52,636 nt of DNA, taken from the IMG/VR virus record IMGVR_UViG_3300025674_000060, positions 1-52,636 of that record. The stretch is one strand, 5' to 3'. The notes below the pieces were generated by a model, which saw only the letters and a program-made list of their open reading frames with translations, was not told where the DNA came from and did not search any database. This document shows positions 5,722 through 35,998 of the stretch, piece after piece (positions within the stretch are counted from its first letter, which is position 1; every line of letters begins with the position of its first letter). Origin of the DNA: a virus. A program made the position numbers and the translations under genes.

Positions 5722-7482
5722 CTACACCTGCTCCTCCCAAACGAGGGAGCTACTCACATCCATCGTACCGGTTGCGCTGTTGGCGACCACATAAAGAGCG
5801 TCACCGGATGCAGCAGTTAACGGATACGAGAGGTAATCCTTGTTGTAAGCGAAGTAAGGAGACAGATCGATATCGGTGCCGCCGGCTCCAACGAAGAAGG
5901 TTGCCACGGTCACGCCGCCGCTGACGATGGGCACGGTGCCGGAAGGAACGTCCGCGTACTCGACGGGGCTCAGAGTACCGGCACTGGTGAAGGACGCGAC
6001 GCCTGACACGTAGACGGGGTTCTTGATCAGTTTGACCGTGCCGCGAGAGCCAGCACCGACACCCAGACGGGTCGGATAGACCTGCATCCGGTTGCGCACA
6101 CCGTTGACTTCGTTCTTTACGCGGACAGCCAACAGAGCCTCACCAGCGGTGCTCACACCCCGGTCATTAGCGTTGCTCTGGGAGCGAGCAACAACGGTGC
6201 CGGTGTCGCCGCCATCGATGTAATACGAAGCGCCGTACTTATAGATGGCGGATTCGTTGGCGCTGTTGTACTTTTGCGCGACGTAAGTAATCGGCAGAGT
6301 CGGATTCGACAGGCTCGGGCTGACGAGCTGGTTTGAAGTGCGAATGTCGTGAACTCGCACCCACGAGGCATTGCCCGTAGTTGTGGAGTCGGGAATATAA
6401 GCGAAGAAACGAGCGCCGACTGCCCCGTACCAGGAGTAGTCGACTTTGAGCATGGTGACTTTGGTGAAGTCAAAGTCCCAAACGGAGGTATCGGTCTGCA
6501 GGTTACCGACGTCATCAGTAACAGCAGTACCGTCGATATAGGAAACTAAAGGAGTATTAGCAGTACCGCTAGCGTGCAGTGTAAAGCTGCTCTTTCCAGG
6601 CGTCCTATCAGAGTAGAAGAGGGTCGCAGTTTGAGCATCGAGACGATCCCCCGAGAAGTAACGCCGGGGAACACGATACTCGTAGGTGTATTGGTTGCCG
6701 CTAGCGACTGTTAAGAAACTCGACGAAACAGTCGTTGTACCGTTAGACGAAGCATTACTGCCAATGTTGACACCGCTAGAAGCGTCCCGGAGACTGCGAT
6801 CGTAAAGAGCAGCGTGAACATATGTAAGGCCGCCACGGACGATAACCAGATCGCTGCCAGCAGTACCGACATCGCCGTCGCCAGCGTCCGGGTTGCGGAT
6901 ACCAGTCGCGTCAGTCTCGAATGCGCTGCTACGGCGAACGCAGTAGAAATTGAAGTTCTTATTAGTGCGAGCATCCCCAGTGAAGTCCTGAGCGCCGCCT
7001 TGAACTTCCCAGTAGTAGCCGTCCTTGCTGTCGAAAGCGCCGGCTTTCTTGACGTCGGTCGCATCGGTCGACTCGGAGAAGCGAACGCCGAACGTAGCGG
7101 AACTGACGCGACCAGGCTGATAGCGAAAAAACCGCTTGCTGCTGAGGATCTGAGTGGTGCTACCGCTAGCTGCGGGCAGATAGATCTTCGCAGCACTCTC
7201 ACTAGGAAGGTGAGTCGTCAGGCCACCGCCTTCGCTCTCCCATTCGTTGGGGTTGACGTCGTAAGTAGTGACGTCGGAGAAGATACCGAGAGCAGTTTCG
7301 GTACGAGGGATACCGAGCAGACTCAGGCTGACTTCAGAGATCTGCTGGTTCTGAATGCTGACGGGAACAGCAGATTGGTCGCTGGCAACAACAACGGGCA
7401 GGCTTTCCTGCATCGTCTGTTGGCCCTTAGGAATCGGGGCCGACCGACCAATAGTGATTACCGTTGCGTTTACGTCAGCCAT
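5722..7482 (-). CDS. Tail structural protein, paralogue of the 782-residue neighbour
   Basis: This protein has 586 residues. SEVSLSLLGIPRTE, FRYQPGRVSSATFGVR, YSWYGAVGARFFAY and YIDGGDTGT match segments of the 3363-5711 product in the same order, so the two arose by duplication. The N-terminal 30 residues (APIPKGQQTMQESLPVVVAS) resemble lead-ins of other phage structural proteins. It begins at an ATG 15 bases downstream of the 7498-8400 stop. The role is inferred from the cluster only. Confidence 0.82.
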   Translation of the reverse strand: MADVNATVITIGRSAPIPKGQQTMQESLPVVVASDQSAVPVSIQNQQISEVSLSLLGIPRTETALGIFSDVTTYDVNPNEWESEGGGLTTHLPSESAAKIYLPAASGSTTQILSSKRFFRYQPGRVSSATFGVRFSESTDATDVKKAGAFDSKDGYYWEVQGGAQDFTGDARTNKNFNFYCVRRSSAFETDATGIRNPDAGDGDVGTAGSDLVIVRGGLTYVHAALYDRSLRDASSGVNIGSNASSNGTTTVSSSFLTVASGNQYTYEYRVPRRYFSGDRLDAQTATLFYSDRTPGKSSFTLHASGTANTPLVSYIDGTAVTDDVGNLQTDTSVWDFDFTKVTMLKVDYSWYGAVGARFFAYIPDSTTTGNASWVRVHDIRTSNQLVSPSLSNPTLPITYVAQKYNSANESAIYKYGASYYIDGGDTGTVVARSQSNANDRGVSTAGEALLAVRVKNEVNGVRNRMQVYPTRLGVGAGSRGTVKLIKNPVYVSGVASFTSAGTLSPVEYADVPSGTVPIVSGGVTVATFFVGAGGTDIDLSPYFAYNKDYLSYPLTAASGDALYVVANSATGTMDVSSSLVWEEQV

Positions 7483-22658: not shown

Positions 22659-23105
22659 TCATTCAACGTAGATCGAGTCGCTGAGGATTTCGTCCCAATT
22701 AATATGCTTAATTTGGCGAAGCTGCTCAAGTTTGGTGAAACGCTCGCCAGGAAGAGACATCCGTAACTCGATGATCTCGTTGGCAGTTTTCAGCCCCACG
22801 CCAGGAAGAACCTGAGTCAGAAGCTCCGGAGTGGCGGCATTCAGGTTGAAGCGATTTGGTGCGGGCACTTGCGGCTTCACAACTTGCCGACCTCGGCGAC
22901 CCTTAACGGGTTTTGCCTGCCCTTTGGAATCTTTAGCTTCAGCAGCTTTCTGATCGATTTGATTTTTATGAGCGAAGAAAACTTTACCTGTTGTTTTTGA
23001 GCGCACCATAAAATACTCACCGTCATCATGAGTACTTAAAATATCGACCTTAACTCCGCTAGGAGTAAAAGTAATGTCCTGTTCAGTCACGATGGCAGTC
23101 ATCAT
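22659..23105 (-). CDS. Helix-hairpin-helix domain protein
   Basis: This protein has 148 residues. Residues 85-140 carry a ComEA-type helix-hairpin-helix: FNLNAATPELLTQVLPGVGL, KTANEIIELR, then LEQLRQIKHINWDEIL. This fold binds DNA without sequence preference. The N-terminal 60 residues form a small beta barrel (VDILSTHDDGEYFMVRSKTT), followed by a basic linker. In a virion cluster it may handle DNA in the head or during entry. Two adjacent start codons (23105 and 23102) are possible. Confidence 0.75.
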   Translation of the reverse strand: MMTAIVTEQDITFTPSGVKVDILSTHDDGEYFMVRSKTTGKVFFAHKNQIDQKAAEAKDSKGQAKPVKGRRGRQVVKPQVPAPNRFNLNAATPELLTQVLPGVGLKTANEIIELRMSLPGERFTKLEQLRQIKHINWDEILSDSIYVE

Positions 23106-24593: not shown

Positions 24594-25709
24594 TCAAGCG
24601 TTAAAGGAGTAAGCCACGGTGGCGAAATCAGCGTTCAGAAGTTCGAAACCTGCGTACAGGCTCCAAATCATCATGATGAAACGGCTGAAGTCGTCATTGT
24701 TGTTCAGCAGAACCTGAGCGTTGTTGCCGCCGATGCCGACGCCTACGCTCTGAGGACCGAAGAACATACCAATAGCGCTCTCGTAAGAAGCAGAGCTACC
24801 GCCGATGGTGGCAGTCTGCGACTGAGAAGGCATGTTGGTGGATTCGAAGAAGCGAACGCCTTCGAACACGAAGCCGGTGGGCATAATAGGCTCACCAGCC
24901 ACGAAGGTGGCCTGACCGAAGCCCTGACCCATGTAGATAGCAGCGTTGGGCTGCATACCGGACATGAGGGGGTTGATCTGACCGTTGCCAGGATAACGAG
25001 CGACCTCGCGGAAATCGCTGTTCTGACGCAGGTGCATCAGGAAAGTAGGATCGCAAACGCAGCGATAGAAACCGTCCTGATAGGTGGGGACGTTGCGCTT
25101 ACGCATGGATTTAACCACGCGGAGCAGGTCGTCCTTAACGTCGAACTTAGCTTGTTCGGCGTTGGTGTAGGTCAGGCTACCGACGGCAAGATCGCCAGGG
25201 TAGTAGTAACCACCTTGGGAGTCGGAAGCTTGGCCTTTGGAAACTGCTTTCAGGAGTTCATTGATGAACACCCGGTCACGCCAACGACGATAGTCGTCGA
25301 GCAGGGTCAGCGAACCGATGGACTGGTGGAAGCCAGTCAGGTTGCCGGTGTCCAGCAGAAGACGCTGCGCGGTAATGAGAGTTTCGCGAGCAATCTTGAA
25401 AGTGCTGGGCTGAGTAGGATCGCTCGGGTCTGCAGGGCCGGTGTACTCGCGAAGAGTAACGAGCACCTTATCCTTCACGATGTTGCGGCTGTTTGCAGTA
25501 CCGATGGTCTGCTCAGCAGTACGCTCACGTGACTCTTTGCTGCCCGGATTGCCCCAGAACCTGTAGCGGTCTAACTGCACAGTCTGGCCAGGCTGCTTGC
25601 TGAAGTCATGAACGACCACAGGCTCTGCAGCCATCTCTACAACGTACGCAGGGTGCGGACGGTAAAGTTCGGCGCCGAGCAGCTTCGGGAAATCATTATC
25701 GACAAACAC
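24594..25709 (-). CDS. Probable major capsid protein
   Basis: This protein has 371 residues, with a GTG start at 25709 and a GGAG site 9-12 bases upstream. Features consistent with an HK97-type capsid protein are the N-terminal arm with HDFSKQPGQTVQLDRYRFWG, the long helix region around KVLVTLREYTGP and ARETLITAQRLLLD, a YRRWRDRVFINELLKAVS helix, then VCDPTFLMHLRQNSDF and GFVFEGVRFFESTNMP. It follows the scaffold and portal order seen in phage head modules. It may belong to the N4 gp56-like capsid group, but that assignment is tentative. Confidence 0.78.
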   Translation of the reverse strand: MFVDNDFPKLLGAELYRPHPAYVVEMAAEPVVVHDFSKQPGQTVQLDRYRFWGNPGSKESRERTAEQTIGTANSRNIVKDKVLVTLREYTGPADPSDPTQPSTFKIARETLITAQRLLLDTGNLTGFHQSIGSLTLLDDYRRWRDRVFINELLKAVSKGQASDSQGGYYYPGDLAVGSLTYTNAEQAKFDVKDDLLRVVKSMRKRNVPTYQDGFYRCVCDPTFLMHLRQNSDFREVARYPGNGQINPLMSGMQPNAAIYMGQGFGQATFVAGEPIMPTGFVFEGVRFFESTNMPSQSQTATIGGSSASYESAIGMFFGPQSVGVGIGGNNAQVLLNNNDDFSRFIMMIWSLYAGFELLNADFATVAYSFNA

Positions 25710-26999: not shown

Positions 27000-27950
27000 T
27001 CAGTTGCCGTCCAGGAACAAGAGCTTGGAGCGCAGAGCTTCAGGCGACATGTTGTTCAGGTAACGCCAAGCTTGATCAGGGGCCTGGTTCATCACTTGGC
27101 TGAACTGCTGCCAGGTGCTATCGGGATCCTGAGCAGGCATACCGGCGGTTGCGTTAGCAGGGACCGCAGGAACTTGATCGTAGTTGGGCTGATAGGCCTG
27201 CTGCTGTTGAGCCATAGCGTTATCAGCGGCGATCTGCTCGTCGGTGCGCAGATCGGTGGGATACACCTCGGTAAAGAACCGGTTGGTGTAATCAGCCAGC
27301 TGATCAGGATCAGTCAGGATTTGCTCCATGGCCATGCCACGGGTGGCGATCTGCTCCAGAGTTTGATGCTGCTGAATCAGAGCATCTTCCAGCGTGGTGG
27401 AGTACTGGTTAAGAATCGCAGGAGCTTCCAGACCGAAGTGGTTAACGACGGCGGCGCTTGCTTGGCTTAACTGCGGCTCCTGCGCCGTAGAAGTCGGCGA
27501 GGAAATTGGGGTCGTAGAGACGCTGTTGGAGTAGGTCGGCTGAGCCGTAGGGGGTTGGTAAGCCCAGGGCTGTTGGACCTGTGTAGTCAGACTGTTCGGT
27601 TGAATAGCCGGCTGCTCCATTTGGAGCTGCGGCGACGACGCTGTCTGGCTGGGGGACGGGGAGAGCCGAGAGACGATCCGATCCAGGCTGCCCAGTGCTG
27701 CCTCCCACGGGTTGCTCGGGGAGGAGACGGACGGAAACTGGTTGTACTGGCTGTTGGTAGAAGGGTCCGTAGCCAGTTGTGCCAGCGACGGCGCTTGGGC
27801 TGTAGTTGCCGAAGCTACCGCCGGGGTAGAGGTTTGCGCCACCCACTGCGGGTAAGCGGTTGAGCCCATTTCCGGGGAGGGAGCCGCCTGGGGCGCCGCT
27901 ACTGCCGGGGAGACCGGGCTCGGGGTCGAAGCTGGGATCGCTTGGCTCAT
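27000..27950 (-). CDS. Scaffold-like head assembly protein, overlapping the portal gene
   Basis: This protein has 316 residues from an ATG at 27950. The first 170 residues are Pro/Ser/Gln/Thr-rich and lie over the 3' end of the portal gene in another frame, an overlap of 509 bases. Residues 170-316 read as scaffold: LEAPAILNQYSTTLEDALIQ, QHQTLEQIATRGMAMEQIL, and a helical C-terminus (QVMNQAPDQAWRYLNNM). Later ATGs at 27869 (M28) and 27620 (M111) would shorten the overlap but not remove it, as no ATG exists between the portal stop and residue 205. Scaffolds guide capsid assembly and leave or are cut before packaging. Confidence 0.7.
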   Translation of the reverse strand: MSQAIPASTPSPVSPAVAAPQAAPSPEMGSTAYPQWVAQTSTPAVASATTAQAPSLAQLATDPSTNSQYNQFPSVSSPSNPWEAALGSLDRIVSRLSPSPSQTASSPQLQMEQPAIQPNSLTTQVQQPWAYQPPTAQPTYSNSVSTTPISSPTSTAQEPQLSQASAAVVNHFGLEAPAILNQYSTTLEDALIQQHQTLEQIATRGMAMEQILTDPDQLADYTNRFFTEVYPTDLRTDEQIAADNAMAQQQQAYQPNYDQVPAVPANATAGMPAQDPDSTWQQFSQVMNQAPDQAWRYLNNMSPEALRSKLLFLDGN

Positions 27951-29682
27951 AGCTGCCCGAGTAAGTTAATTCTTGCGCAAGGTGATCGAATGTGCGGTAG
28001 AGAAGAGGCGTTATGTTTAACCTCGGGTCCGCCGCTAGCGGCTGTGTCGGCGCAAGAGGATGCGGCGACTGCATCAGCTGATTTAATGTTAGCAGGAAAT
28101 TTTGTAGTGCGGCCTGCGTTTGTTGAATCATTCGGAAGGGGAAACCCTTCAACATCTCCGATCGCTCTAGATCAGTTTTATCGGGGAAGAGATAGCGCAG
28201 GGCTTCCACGCTGTCTACACCGAGCTCCTGCAAATTTCGAACAACAATAGATTTTTGGTTGATGTCGTAAGCAGTATCCTCGTAGACATCGCCCTGGAAC
28301 CTATAGGTTACGGTTCGATCTCCGTCAGGCGGTAGGCCATAAACTCCGCCAGGAACTTTATTTTCTGTCAGCGCTGTCTGAATAGCCAGATCTACGTCTT
28401 GCTCGTATTTAGCAAGTTTCTTCTGGTATTTTTCCGCCGCCTCTGGCGTATCTTCCTTAGGCTCTTTCGGCGGAGCCATGCCCATAACCGAAATAAAGCT
28501 CTCGCGGAAGATCTGCTCCTGGTGATAAATAATCATCTCCAGAAGGCGACAAAAGCCGTAGCTTAAAAAGCTCTTATTTTTACGAAGAGCAGTCGCTTGA
28601 GCGCGGCCCATAAGACCTTTAATTTCAGTCGCAGTGGCACCGGCGCTAATCGATATTTCATCAACGCCGCCGAGTGCGGTTCGAATTTCTTCGCGCAGTA
28701 GAAGTGCATAACGATTCATATCCCCGTTAACGGGGTCAGGTGTCATGTAACCCACGCGGTCCGTCGGTTCAACGTTCGCAATAATGCGAGGAACCCGTAA
28801 ACCACCGAGTCCAGCTTGCGAGCCGAACGGATCCGATACGCGAGTCGACGGAGAATCTAGACCAGCGAAACCACTCTGGCTGCTAATAGTCGGACGGAAG
28901 TTACGATCCGTATCGCTGGCTTCCACCAGATCGCTACGGGGACGCGAGCTGATCAGCGTGGGATTGCCGAAGAACTCAATGTTCTTGGCGATATTTTGCA
29001 TCATCTGATCATGCAGAACGATCTGCTGCATGAACGATTCAAATTCGCCCTCACCCTCTGTGCCGCTTGCATTCGGCTTATTCAAAACTTCCACGGCGGG
29101 AATAAACCCGAGCGTGTTGGGGCGAGTGTTTTTAGGCGTTATTAAAGAGGAAGGCTCAAGCTCAAAACTGAGCTCGGTGTCGGACTCGAATTCCTGAATC
29201 TGATCTGCTGTTATCGAGATGCGCACATAGCGCTTGTTCTGCCCGTAGCTATTAGTAGGCAGTCCTAAATTACTGTTTTTAATTTTGTAAGAATACAGAA
29301 TGACGGTCTCTTCGATCTCGCCGTTAAGGTCGTGGTAGACCCGATATTGATTTTTGTTGAAGAAATAAATCTGATACTTAAGTTTGGGGTCTGGTCGAAA
29401 GTAAAACAAACCGCACCCATCAATCAAAAAATTGCGAATGATCGCTGGAAACCTGATATCCAGTTTGTTTAGTTGTATCAGGTCATCAAGAAACTTACTG
29501 CGAGCTTTATATGTATCCTGATCACAATAAAAATAGAGACCCTTCTTAACCATAAGAAGGGTCATCTGCTGCAAGTGACTGAGCACCACCATAGTGGCGG
29601 ATTGCTTAGTGCGATCCTGAGTGCGTGCGGCCTCCAGAATTTCGCTAAAGCGTTGCCGAATACTGAGGTTGTCCGCAGGCAT
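27442..29682 (-). CDS. Portal protein
   Basis: This protein has 746 residues. The N-terminal half has the portal wing pattern: DGCGLFYFRPDPKLKY, FFNKNQYRVYHD, then LGFIPAVEVLNKPNA and IVLHDQMMQNIAKNIEFFG. The stem and clip region follows (AGATATEIKGLMGRAQATAL, FLSYGFCRLLEMIIYHQE). The last 200 residues are Pro/Gly/Gln-rich and end in KPSKRRRR. Twelve copies would form the DNA channel at one capsid vertex. The last 509 bases are shared with the scaffold-like frame. Confidence 0.85.
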   Translation of the reverse strand: MPADNLSIRQRFSEILEAARTQDRTKQSATMVVLSHLQQMTLLMVKKGLYFYCDQDTYKARSKFLDDLIQLNKLDIRFPAIIRNFLIDGCGLFYFRPDPKLKYQIYFFNKNQYRVYHDLNGEIEETVILYSYKIKNSNLGLPTNSYGQNKRYVRISITADQIQEFESDTELSFELEPSSLITPKNTRPNTLGFIPAVEVLNKPNASGTEGEGEFESFMQQIVLHDQMMQNIAKNIEFFGNPTLISSRPRSDLVEASDTDRNFRPTISSQSGFAGLDSPSTRVSDPFGSQAGLGGLRVPRIIANVEPTDRVGYMTPDPVNGDMNRYALLLREEIRTALGGVDEISISAGATATEIKGLMGRAQATALRKNKSFLSYGFCRLLEMIIYHQEQIFRESFISVMGMAPPKEPKEDTPEAAEKYQKKLAKYEQDVDLAIQTALTENKVPGGVYGLPPDGDRTVTYRFQGDVYEDTAYDINQKSIVVRNLQELGVDSVEALRYLFPDKTDLERSEMLKGFPFRMIQQTQAALQNFLLTLNQLMQSPHPLAPTQPLAADPRLNITPLLYRTFDHLAQELTYSGSYEPSDPSFDPEPGLPGSSGAPGGSLPGNGLNRLPAVGGANLYPGGSFGNYSPSAVAGTTGYGPFYQQPVQPVSVRLLPEQPVGGSTGQPGSDRLSALPVPQPDSVVAAAPNGAAGYSTEQSDYTGPTALGLPTPYGSADLLQQRLYDPNFLADFYGAGAAVKPSKRRRR

Positions 29683-29700: not shown

Positions 29701-30543
29701 TCAGGAGTCCGGGAGCAGGTACTCCTTCACTCGTTCCAGTTTAAACAATTCTGGCGGTAAAAGATCATGCGGATACGAGGTCAGTATATGGTCTTTACGA
29801 CCAAGAGGATCTGTGCCTCCTACAGTAGCTTTATAGCTATCCAAGTAGTCCAGCATCTCCTGGCTGTATGCAGGAGCATACGCGTTAGGAATTTCGTCGT
29901 AACAATGGGAGAAAGACGTCAGTTTGCGCTTGAGACGATCAGCGCCGCCCATCCAACTAAAATGCCACCCCGCATTACAATCCCCTACGACTACATCGTT
30001 AGGGTTACGACGTATCTCAGACAAGGTTTTATCTAAATGATCGTGAAGAACCACGGTGCCACAAGTCCAATTAGTGGGAGGTTTAGTTTTATCTCCATCC
30101 GGACTCATAACCCGAAGATCTGCGCGACCGTACATCATCGGCATAGAAAGACGAACACAGCGATCACGATCTTTTTTAGCTACTTCAACAGCTTCCAATA
30201 GAGCAGAAGGTTTGGGAATTTCATCGACATCACTGAAGAAGAAAACAGAATCTGGCGGAGTCATCCGCATACCAACAGCCAGAGCGTCGCGCTGAGAATA
30301 TTCCCGAACCCAAGGACTAGGCGCAATATCCGGCGGCGGCAGTTCTACATGCAGTACTTGAATTTTGTCTTCGGGTAATCCGAGCTCACGAATAGTGTCT
30401 ACACAAGTGAAGGGTTTTTCGTCGCCTTTGAAAGTTCTGTTAGCGTCCGTAATGATAAAACCATCAACGACATCTTTAAGCATTTCCACGCGTAGCTCTA
30501 AAAGCTCACGTTCATTGAAGTACAAAAAACAATCGAACAGCAT
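29701..30543 (-). CDS. Glycosyltransferase family 17-like protein
   Basis: This protein has 280 residues. The start MLFDCFLYFNERELLELRVE, followed by VVDGFIITDANRTFKG, matches GT17 (beta-1,4-N-acetylglucosaminyltransferase-like) proteins. SVFFFSDVDEIPKPSAL carries the acidic DVDE metal site, and GWHFSWMGG is a family hallmark. It would transfer a sugar from a nucleotide-sugar donor. It lies 18 bases upstream of the portal gene on the same strand, so it would be expressed with head proteins. Confidence 0.82.
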   Translation of the reverse strand: MLFDCFLYFNERELLELRVEMLKDVVDGFIITDANRTFKGDEKPFTCVDTIRELGLPEDKIQVLHVELPPPDIAPSPWVREYSQRDALAVGMRMTPPDSVFFFSDVDEIPKPSALLEAVEVAKKDRDRCVRLSMPMMYGRADLRVMSPDGDKTKPPTNWTCGTVVLHDHLDKTLSEIRRNPNDVVVGDCNAGWHFSWMGGADRLKRKLTSFSHCYDEIPNAYAPAYSQEMLDYLDSYKATVGGTDPLGRKDHILTSYPHDLLPPELFKLERVKEYLLPDS

Positions 30544-33247: not shown

Positions 33248-34771
33248 TCAATACTCAACAGAAAAACTACCGCGACGTTGTAAAAATGTTATCAACCATG
33301 TGTACGCATCTAATAAATCGTCATGTGCTGTAGCGCCTACGTTAATAAGTTGATCAAACAAAGCGTCGAACTTACGATATTTGTTAAAGACCACTTTTTG
33401 ATTCTCTAAAAGACCCAAAGTGCCTCTAAAACGAGCGATCTTGTCGCCCCTAAATCCTTTAACTTCGTGAATATGAAGATTACTGAGCCCACGCTCGTTC
33501 AAAAGGACGCGCCGTAGGTCTGCAGCCAGACTAGCTTGATACGCTACGGACTCGACTACAAGCGTCACCGTTGAGTACGTCGGCTGATACTCTCCATTGT
33601 ATTTAGTCAAGATACCCCACTCTAATAACATGTCGCACAGCAGGTCTATTTTCTCAAGGTTTCCAATAGAACGGCACTGATGAGCATCGACGATATAGTA
33701 TTTATCCTTTAGTCGCCCACCTAAGACAAAAGCAGTGTAGTCCGACGTCTCGTTTTTACTCGCAGAAAGGTCGATACCGAGGGCCAAGCTATCGAACTCA
33801 GTTGCTACATCGCCTTTAATAAGCAAGTCTGGCGAGACGACAAGGTCCGACGTGGCAACAGGCTGCTGCTGATACTGAAAACAAAATGCTACAGGATCTA
33901 ATTCTTTCTGTTGTAATAAGTAATCAACAGACCACTGTGCTTGCCAATAGCTCTTAGGTTGCCCTTTATCGTCATACGTCAGAGCTTCTTGTGTAACCTG
34001 CTTCCACCCTTTCTCCGGGATGAACATTGTTTTATGAATATCCAATGGATGGAAACGAGTACCTAGGCAGACAGATCGTCCGCCCTCAAAAATAATAGGA
34101 GCAATAACACTACTCCAGTTGTTATTCATCTCTTCACGAATAGTAGGATTTTTAATATCTGCTGAACTCTTTATAGGGTCGTCTACTAAAACCAAGTGAG
34201 CTCGTTTACTGGTAATACTTCCTCGTAACCCTGCAGCTCGCAGCGTAAATTCCTCGTCACCCAATCTCGGGATACCCGCGTAGTCGTAGTCAATAGACCA
34301 ACCTATGTCCGACTGCATACCTGGCTTAAGCCGGCAAGTCGGAAAAATTTTGCGAAACTCAGACGAATCTACGATCTGTCGGATGATCCTGGATTTAGGG
34401 ATAGCAGTCGCAATGTTGTAACTAACATAGATAATTTGTAGAGGTCTTTTTGCTGCCGTGTGACGTCCTATGCACCATGCCGTAAACATATTTAGCACGG
34501 TCGATTTAGCGGAACCACGTGGGGCCAGAATGTCTAGGTTAGGCCCTGCAATATCCAGAAGATACTTATTGCTTTCGTTAGTCACTAAATGCTCGTGCCA
34601 TTCCAGCATGTGAGGGGCAGGGGGCTTGTCTAAAAGAGTACAGAACGTATGAAAATCATTAGCTGCTTTACTGTAAATAGTTTCTACGGTATTACTGTCG
34701 TTACTTTCTAACGCTTTGAGTGCCCGTAATTGTGCTCCACGTCGATATGCAAAAGTTTCCCGACTAGGCAT
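33248..34771 (-). CDS. Terminase large subunit
   Basis: This protein has 507 residues. Walker A is APRGSAKST (residues 82-91) and Walker B is HLVLVDDP (near 200), with LVGTRFHPL-like coupling nearby (VCLGTRFHPLDI). The nuclease half has LGIDLSASKNETSDYTAFV and a final DLLDAYTWL with the acidic pair expected of an RNase H-like nuclease. It packages DNA into the prohead through the portal and cuts the concatemer. It is the first gene of the leftward head unit, divergent from 34826. Confidence 0.93.
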   Translation of the reverse strand: MPSRETFAYRRGAQLRALKALESNDSNTVETIYSKAANDFHTFCTLLDKPPAPHMLEWHEHLVTNESNKYLLDIAGPNLDILAPRGSAKSTVLNMFTAWCIGRHTAAKRPLQIIYVSYNIATAIPKSRIIRQIVDSSEFRKIFPTCRLKPGMQSDIGWSIDYDYAGIPRLGDEEFTLRAAGLRGSITSKRAHLVLVDDPIKSSADIKNPTIREEMNNNWSSVIAPIIFEGGRSVCLGTRFHPLDIHKTMFIPEKGWKQVTQEALTYDDKGQPKSYWQAQWSVDYLLQQKELDPVAFCFQYQQQPVATSDLVVSPDLLIKGDVATEFDSLALGIDLSASKNETSDYTAFVLGGRLKDKYYIVDAHQCRSIGNLEKIDLLCDMLLEWGILTKYNGEYQPTYSTVTLVVESVAYQASLAADLRRVLLNERGLSNLHIHEVKGFRGDKIARFRGTLGLLENQKVVFNKYRKFDALFDQLINVGATAHDDLLDAYTWLITFLQRRGSFSVEY

Positions 34772-34799: not shown

Positions 34800-34825
34800 A
34801 ATTGTACTCGATTCCCCGAGTTTGC

Positions 34826-35998
34826 ATGGCGAAAATCCTTTGGTATGGTGATGCTTGTAGCAACACAGGCTTTGCCAGAGTTACACACAGTGTCTTAGAG
34901 CACTTAAATAAAGATCATGAAATCGTAGTATTAGGTATTAACTACGCAGGCGATCCGCATGATCTACCCTACAAGATCTATCCCGCTTGTCCCGCAGGCT
35001 CTAACGACCGTTTTGGAATAAGTCGAATACCAGAAGTAATCGATAAAGAAAAACCCGATTACGTAATCTGTTTAAACGACATCTGGATCGTAAATCAATT
35101 TTGGGAACGCTGTCAGTTCTTAAAAGACTCCGTAAAGTTTAAATTCATCGCTTACTTCCCTGTAGACAGCGAGAGCTATTACCCGGACATGCTCCGACAT
35201 GTGAAGCACTGGGATTTAGCAATCACCTTTACGATCCCTTGCGCAAGACGAATCATGGAGTGCGGAGCAAACGCCGAAAAATTGGCGGTGCTTCCCCACG
35301 GTGTCGATACGGGTCGTTTCTATCCGTTAGACCGAACCGAAGCCAGAAAGAAGCTTGGAATACCTGAGGATAAATTTATCGTACTGAGTGCCAATAGAAA
35401 CCAACCGCGTAAAAGAACAGACCTGACCATTAAGGCATTTGCTGAGTTTGCAGTAGATAAACCGGACGCTCTTCTGTACCTGCATATGGGCAGTAAAGAC
35501 CTCGGGTGGGACATCCTACCACTATTTAAGCACGAAATGCAAAGACGTAACTTAGATGACGCTCAACGCCTAATTCTTACCTCTAATAACATCAACTATA
35601 TGGATGCTCCGCCCGATGAGCTGTTAAACACTATTTACAACGCTTGCGACATTGGCCTCAATACATCAGACGGCGAAGGATGGGGACTCGTCAGTTTCGA
35701 ACACGCAAGCTGCCGCAAACCGCAAGTTGTGCCCAATCACACGGCCTGTAAAGATATTTGGAACGGAGCAGCTGAACTAATTCCTGTTTCTACGTGGATC
35801 GTAGATAAAGATCTAGGAGTCGAGCGCGGCCTGATTGACGTAAAAGAGGCAGCAAAGCTTTTAAGCGATCTGTATTACGACAAATACATGTACGACGAAG
35901 CCGCCAAAGCTTGTTTCGAAGTAACTCAGCGTCCTGAGTATCGATGGGAATCTATTGCAACTGGTTTTACAGCAGCTATTAACGATCTGGGAGCTTGA
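34826..35998 (+). CDS. Glycosyltransferase family 4 (GT-B)
   Basis: I use the ATG at 34826 (MAKILWYGDACSNTGFARVT) over a poorer start at 34802. The protein has 390 residues. The GT-B pattern is clear: a glycine-bearing first loop (SNTGFA), VLPHGVDTGRF before the linker, SANRNQPRKRTDLTIKAF at the start of the C-terminal Rossmann fold, and DGEGWGLVSFEHASCRKPQV with the E.....E donor site. It would use a nucleotide-activated sugar. It is followed by the propeller gene after 2 bases, both rightward inside leftward head genes. Confidence 0.85.
   Translation: MAKILWYGDACSNTGFARVTHSVLEHLNKDHEIVVLGINYAGDPHDLPYKIYPACPAGSNDRFGISRIPEVIDKEKPDYVICLNDIWIVNQFWERCQFLKDSVKFKFIAYFPVDSESYYPDMLRHVKHWDLAITFTIPCARRIMECGANAEKLAVLPHGVDTGRFYPLDRTEARKKLGIPEDKFIVLSANRNQPRKRTDLTIKAFAEFAVDKPDALLYLHMGSKDLGWDILPLFKHEMQRRNLDDAQRLILTSNNINYMDAPPDELLNTIYNACDIGLNTSDGEGWGLVSFEHASCRKPQVVPNHTACKDIWNGAAELIPVSTWIVDKDLGVERGLIDVKEAAKLLSDLYYDKYMYDEAAKACFEVTQRPEYRWESIATGFTAAINDLGA

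Follow-up and report, generated by a model that had tools for sequence, protein, structure and literature searches.

The 3' end of a portal gene and the 5' half of a probable capsid scaffold gene very likely (probability about 0.88) form a genuine and old dual-coding overlap, in which the scaffold is begun independently at position 27950. The window, meaning the whole stretch of DNA analyzed, is an entire 52.6-kb virus record (52,636 nucleotides), and both genes lie on its minus strand. The portal open reading frame (ORF) runs from 29682 to 27442 (746 amino acids), and the scaffold-like ORF runs from 27950 to 27000 (316 amino acids) in the +1 frame relative to the portal. The 509 nt from 27442 to 27950 are common to both ORFs, as the earlier note had described, and the arrangement is kept in all 459 relatives with a complete junction.

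The upstream ORF is a portal gene as judged from sequence profiles, predicted fold, and position. Its product matches PHROG 20475 (head and packaging; E=6e-160) and a portal PHROG (E=2e-8), its AlphaFold model (me88695d5f3cc) matches the solved portals of 80alpha, T7, lambda, and SPP1 (Foldseek, best E 5e-11), and it has head genes as neighbors (major capsid gene, 24594-25709; terminase gene, 33248-34771). The model is ordered to approximately residue 570, with the core assigned to residues 1-574 (27961-29682; last helix, residues 558-574), and pLDDT is <50 from residue 571 to 746 except at 678-682. The C-terminal tail (residues 578-746; 27445-27951), which is predicted to be disordered, lies wholly within the overlap and carries a GSADL-like motif (residues 713-717, 27532-27546) that is kept between clades with ~44% identical portals, G713 and D716 being invariant. 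The downstream protein is likewise predicted to be disordered where it shares DNA with the portal. Its AlphaFold model (m73a19e34f42f) has a mean pLDDT of 48, and almost all of residues 1-161 fall below 50 except for a short helix at approximately residues 80-96 (NPWEAALGSLDRIVSRL; 27663-27713), the sole helix predicted in the N-terminal half, where an NPW motif is near-invariant between clades. The C-terminal helices (pLDDT ~70-88) start at residue 163, near the portal stop, and this helical part (residues 163-311; 27018-27464) is nearly all outside the overlap. Elsewhere in the region, a gene at 22659-23105, amid the structural genes, encodes a small protein in which a helix-hairpin-helix motif is recognized (above the cut-off of Pfam HHH_3), and two ORFs that by eye are glycosyltransferase-like (29701-30543 and, on the opposite strand, 34802-35998) stand beside the head genes.

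Scanning IMG/VR, GTDB genomes, and phage records gave several hundred relatives, which were assigned to five clades according to whichever of five portal queries lay closest (A, window-like; B, S-EIV1-like; and C, D, and E, which were reached via phage contigs binned in MAGs). Relatives bearing the overlap include Synechococcus phage S-EIV1 as well as phage contigs that had been binned into MAGs of marine and freshwater origin, and the portals of the distant clades are only ~42-45% identical to that of the window. Across the five clades, 459/459 loci holding the whole junction keep the +1 frame open right through the portal end, and a portal stop falls inside the overlap in none of them; many of these loci are near-identical, with 255 left after dereplication at 97% of those with enough upstream sequence. 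Counted from the start codon, the overlap spans 446-641 nt in all clades and always in the same frame (A, 497-515 nt; B, 545-641 nt; C, 446-539 nt; D, 467-524 nt; E, 515-542 nt), while the position of the portal stop differs between relatives. No relative without the overlap was found in these scans, four of which were extra ones that sought an outgroup lacking it. One relative (QQUU01000104.1) has a portal frame that stops near position 5990 of the locus, with the rest of the portal continuing in another frame; either a mistake in assembly or a genuine frameshift could explain this.

Homologues with a scaffold start downstream of the position equivalent to 27442 were named in the earlier note as evidence that would count against the overlap; the one apparent exception, S-EIV1 (KJ410740), the only sequenced isolate, is an effect of annotation. 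The same gene pair and the same overlap are present in this phage as in the window (554 nt, 59287-59840 of the record), with a Shine-Dalgarno site preceding the overlap start, but the GenBank record is annotated without the overlap. Its scaffold gene (AHV82225.1) begins at 59863, after the portal stop and 192 codons past the first ATG of the open frame, and both the portal and the scaffold are labelled hypothetical. The scaffold-like gene of S-EIV1 (locus at 57537-60264 of KJ410740.1) has thus been annotated 192 codons too short because of the overlap.

Patterns of substitution show that, in each of the five clades, the two frames are both under purifying selection; a pattern with only one frame so constrained, which the earlier note named as counting against the overlap, is not seen. 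Synonymous divergence in the portal frame drops in the overlap in 30/30 disjoint pairs. Upstream, dS is 0.50 in both clade A and clade B; within the overlap it is 0.053 in clade A, approximately 10-fold lower, and 0.071 in clade B. Changes were also counted in the style of OLGenie as altering both proteins (NN), the scaffold only (SN), or the portal only (NS), so that NN/SN gives the portal ratio and NN/NS the scaffold ratio. In clade A, the portal ratio is 0.14 [0.08-0.22] and the scaffold ratio 0.15 [0.09-0.23]; the corresponding values in clade B are 0.47 and 0.22. When only transversions are used, which sidesteps transition bias, the ratios for clades A to E are 0.19, 0.55, 0.36, 0.47, and 0.45 for the portal and 0.23, 0.33, 0.26, 0.31, and 0.40 for the scaffold, with all upper limits <1, compared with 0.75-1.05 for the +1 frame of an upstream control. 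When transitions alone are counted, the portal-frame intervals extend to 1 in clades B and C. Constraint on the portal tail is weaker than that on the scaffold in clades B, C, and E.

The scaffold start lies at the same place in all clades, just past the last helix of the portal core (12 nt later in clade A than in clade B), and is ATG in clades A, B, and E and most of clade D, and GTG in clade C and a few members of clade D. In the window, the ATG occupies 27948-27950, and a TAA stop in the scaffold frame (27966-27968) precedes it by 15 nt; a stop is found at this position in 55/55 distinct clade A sequences, and one lies 3 nt before the start in 43/43 clade B sequences. The sequence AGGAG precedes the start in 81/81 clade B loci and 65/65 clade C loci, and a weaker purine-rich site does so in 84/85 clade E loci. 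No Shine-Dalgarno site was found at the scaffold start in clade A, to which the window belongs, or in clade D; most genes of the window also have no strong site. Internal initiation is the most likely way in which the scaffold frame is started, because of the Shine-Dalgarno sites and the stop just upstream in the scaffold frame. The argument for it is weaker in clade A, where the site is absent, than in clades B, C, and E, for which it is strong. Later starts, at 27869 or 27620, had been offered in the earlier note as alternatives and were rejected, these ATGs not being conserved beyond the closer relatives of the window. An ATG at +112 after the portal stop, conserved in clade A, was also discarded, with no methionine there in the aligned clade B sequences. 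A hairpin at the clade A start (27916-27961; CTCGGG/CCCGAG) has exact arms in 144/148 loci, and its stability is not above that of shuffled sequences (z = -0.6).

Were the portal alone coded, the +1 frame would be open by chance because the Pro/Gly/Ser-rich tail has few codons with T in the second position, and the scaffold would start downstream, just as the GenBank annotation of S-EIV1 is drawn. For a single genome, such an open frame has a probability of 0.03 (when the portal is recoded synonymously under its own codon usage) or 0.08 (permutation inside the overlap), which is not negligible, and the relatives are therefore essential to the case. An open frame with a conserved start in every one of the complete loci, the collapse of portal-frame dS in the overlap, NN/NS ratios for the +1 frame far under the upstream control in five of five clades, and the invariant Shine-Dalgarno site ahead of the start in two clades make this explanation extremely improbable, and chance openness is rejected given what the relatives and dS already indicate. 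The converse, that the scaffold alone is coded, would have the portal end near residue 577 with its frame open incidentally beyond that point. The end of the portal core at ~570 in the model is compatible with this idea, as is the stronger constraint on the scaffold in three of the clades, but it is very improbable in view of the uninterrupted portal frame in all 459 loci, NN/SN upper limits that stay under 1 (with transversions in each of the five clades, and with the clade A OLGenie-style ratio given above), and the conserved GSADL-type motif in the tails of such divergent portals.

The earlier note had also raised a +1 shift as something that could in principle give a portal-scaffold fusion; programmed frameshifting of this kind would make the fusion besides or instead of a free scaffold. 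The two frames are in the right relation for it, and both are open for ~500 nt. The scaffold frame meets a stop 3-15 nt ahead of its start, however, so ribosomes that shifted any earlier would never reach the scaffold, and a fusion made in this way is excluded by the sequences; a +1 shift inside the overlap is not supported. With the variable position of the portal stop and the conserved separate start with its Shine-Dalgarno site also standing against it, frameshifting is highly improbable. A different kind of alternative accepts the downstream protein as real and dual-coded and gives it a role other than scaffold, for example, that of a minor head or ejection protein. No trustworthy match for the protein was found in PHROGs, Pfam, PDB sequences, or PDB folds, and it is thus without sequence or fold resemblance to any known scaffold; a weak Pfam match to CCDC53, under its cut-off, was taken as spurious. 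Scaffold proteins diverge fast, and, since the model is also poor, the lack of a relation to known scaffolds lowers confidence in the label without excluding it. The gene is nevertheless called a probable capsid scaffold gene because it is located between the portal and major capsid genes, all on the same strand, and because its product has a Pro/Gln-rich N-terminus and a C-terminal part that is helical in a model of low confidence; with no better scaffold candidate recognized between the portal and capsid genes, some other role is unlikely.

Under the favored reading of a true dual-coding overlap, the full portal would be translated with a disordered, Pro/Gly/Ser-rich C-terminal tail of ~169 residues, while other ribosomes would start independently inside the portal coding sequence at 27950, in the +1 frame, to produce the scaffold. 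The disordered N-terminal half of the scaffold would then share its DNA with the portal tail, and its helical C-terminal half would be encoded past the portal stop. With the start placed where the folded portal core ends, only disordered segments of both proteins are overprinted, so that the overlap appears to join two segments that are each predicted to be disordered. Portal C-termini point into the capsid interior, where the scaffold is located, and a functional contact between the portal tail and the scaffold is a conjecture. Since the overlap begins at the end of the portal core, the favored origin is one in which the portal lost an ancestral stop and came to extend over a pre-existing scaffold gene. 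Every relative in this sample has the overlap, and codon usage as a test of relative age gives opposite answers, with clade A favoring the scaffold and clade B the portal as the older frame.

In all five clades, the codons ahead of the scaffold start likewise show little synonymous divergence in the portal frame. This block takes in 60 (clade A) to 140 (clade C) codons and has a sharp upstream edge, 180-420 nt before the start. In the window, it corresponds to 27951-28130 (clade A; across the final 60 codons, observed/expected divergence per 10 codons is 0.00-0.39). An additional ORF was rejected as its cause, no other frame being open across the block in relatives of clades A and B. Conserved RNA structure stands out in clade A only (alifold z = -4.5, versus -0.9 to -2.5 in the other clades), and folding z-scores for individual sequences are mixed. 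A search for the motif of the block elsewhere in S-EIV1 gave a best other match no better than shuffled sequences. Clades B and E share a run within the block, TTAGGTGTTGATAGCATTGAAGCACTGAA, that is invariant or near-invariant in each. Candidates for the block include an internal promoter with a leader and a translation control element. The chances seem evenly balanced that three messages are layered in the 3' third of the portal gene, namely, the portal frame, the scaffold frame, and a cis-acting element in the 180-420 nt upstream of the scaffold start; if present, such an element would set scaffold output independently of portal output.

Several known systems resemble this arrangement in part. 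In lambda, the scaffold Nu3 is the C-terminal part of the protease C and is read in the same frame. The comparison with lambda made in the earlier note is apt as a contrast but not as a parallel: in both cases a capsid scaffold starts inside an upstream head gene, but in lambda that gene is C and the frame is shared, whereas here it is the portal gene and the frames differ. Long out-of-frame overlaps with both frames functional, head-assembly proteins included, are known from the Microviridae (D/E and A/B of phiX174). Such overlaps are usually tied to small genomes; the Microviridae have small ssDNA genomes under strong size limits, unlike the tailed dsDNA phages of ~80 kb considered here. Amongst same-strand overlaps in viruses, +1 is the commonest frame once overlaps of 1 and 4 nt are set aside, and the median length of +1 overlaps is 14 nt (IQR 8-26; PMC8903798), compared with the 446-641 nt maintained throughout this lineage. 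The nearest known arrangement in tailed phages is that of the Rz/Rz1 spanins of lambda and other embedded or overlapped two-component spanins, which also have a same-strand +1 overlap, an internal start, and a Pro-rich product, and are usually missed by gene callers (PMC6139136). The Rz/Rz1 pair differs in consisting of lysis genes with Rz1 nested in Rz, whereas the genes described here are a head-assembly pair overlapping end to end, with each protein supplying a long disordered segment. No report of an out-of-frame overlap between portal and scaffold genes was found in the open-access papers searched.

The lineage consists of widespread, cyanophage-like viruses that are common globally. Gene calling in it has concealed the N-terminal half of what is probably an assembly protein, in the sole isolate as well. 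The arrangement raises the question of how one mRNA gives few portals and many scaffolds. It also offers a clear case of two protein segments, both predicted to be disordered, on one stretch of DNA, and hence a natural test of whether disorder permits overprinting, in a lineage of large dsDNA phages that keeps ~500 dual-coded bases in essential head genes in every member found.
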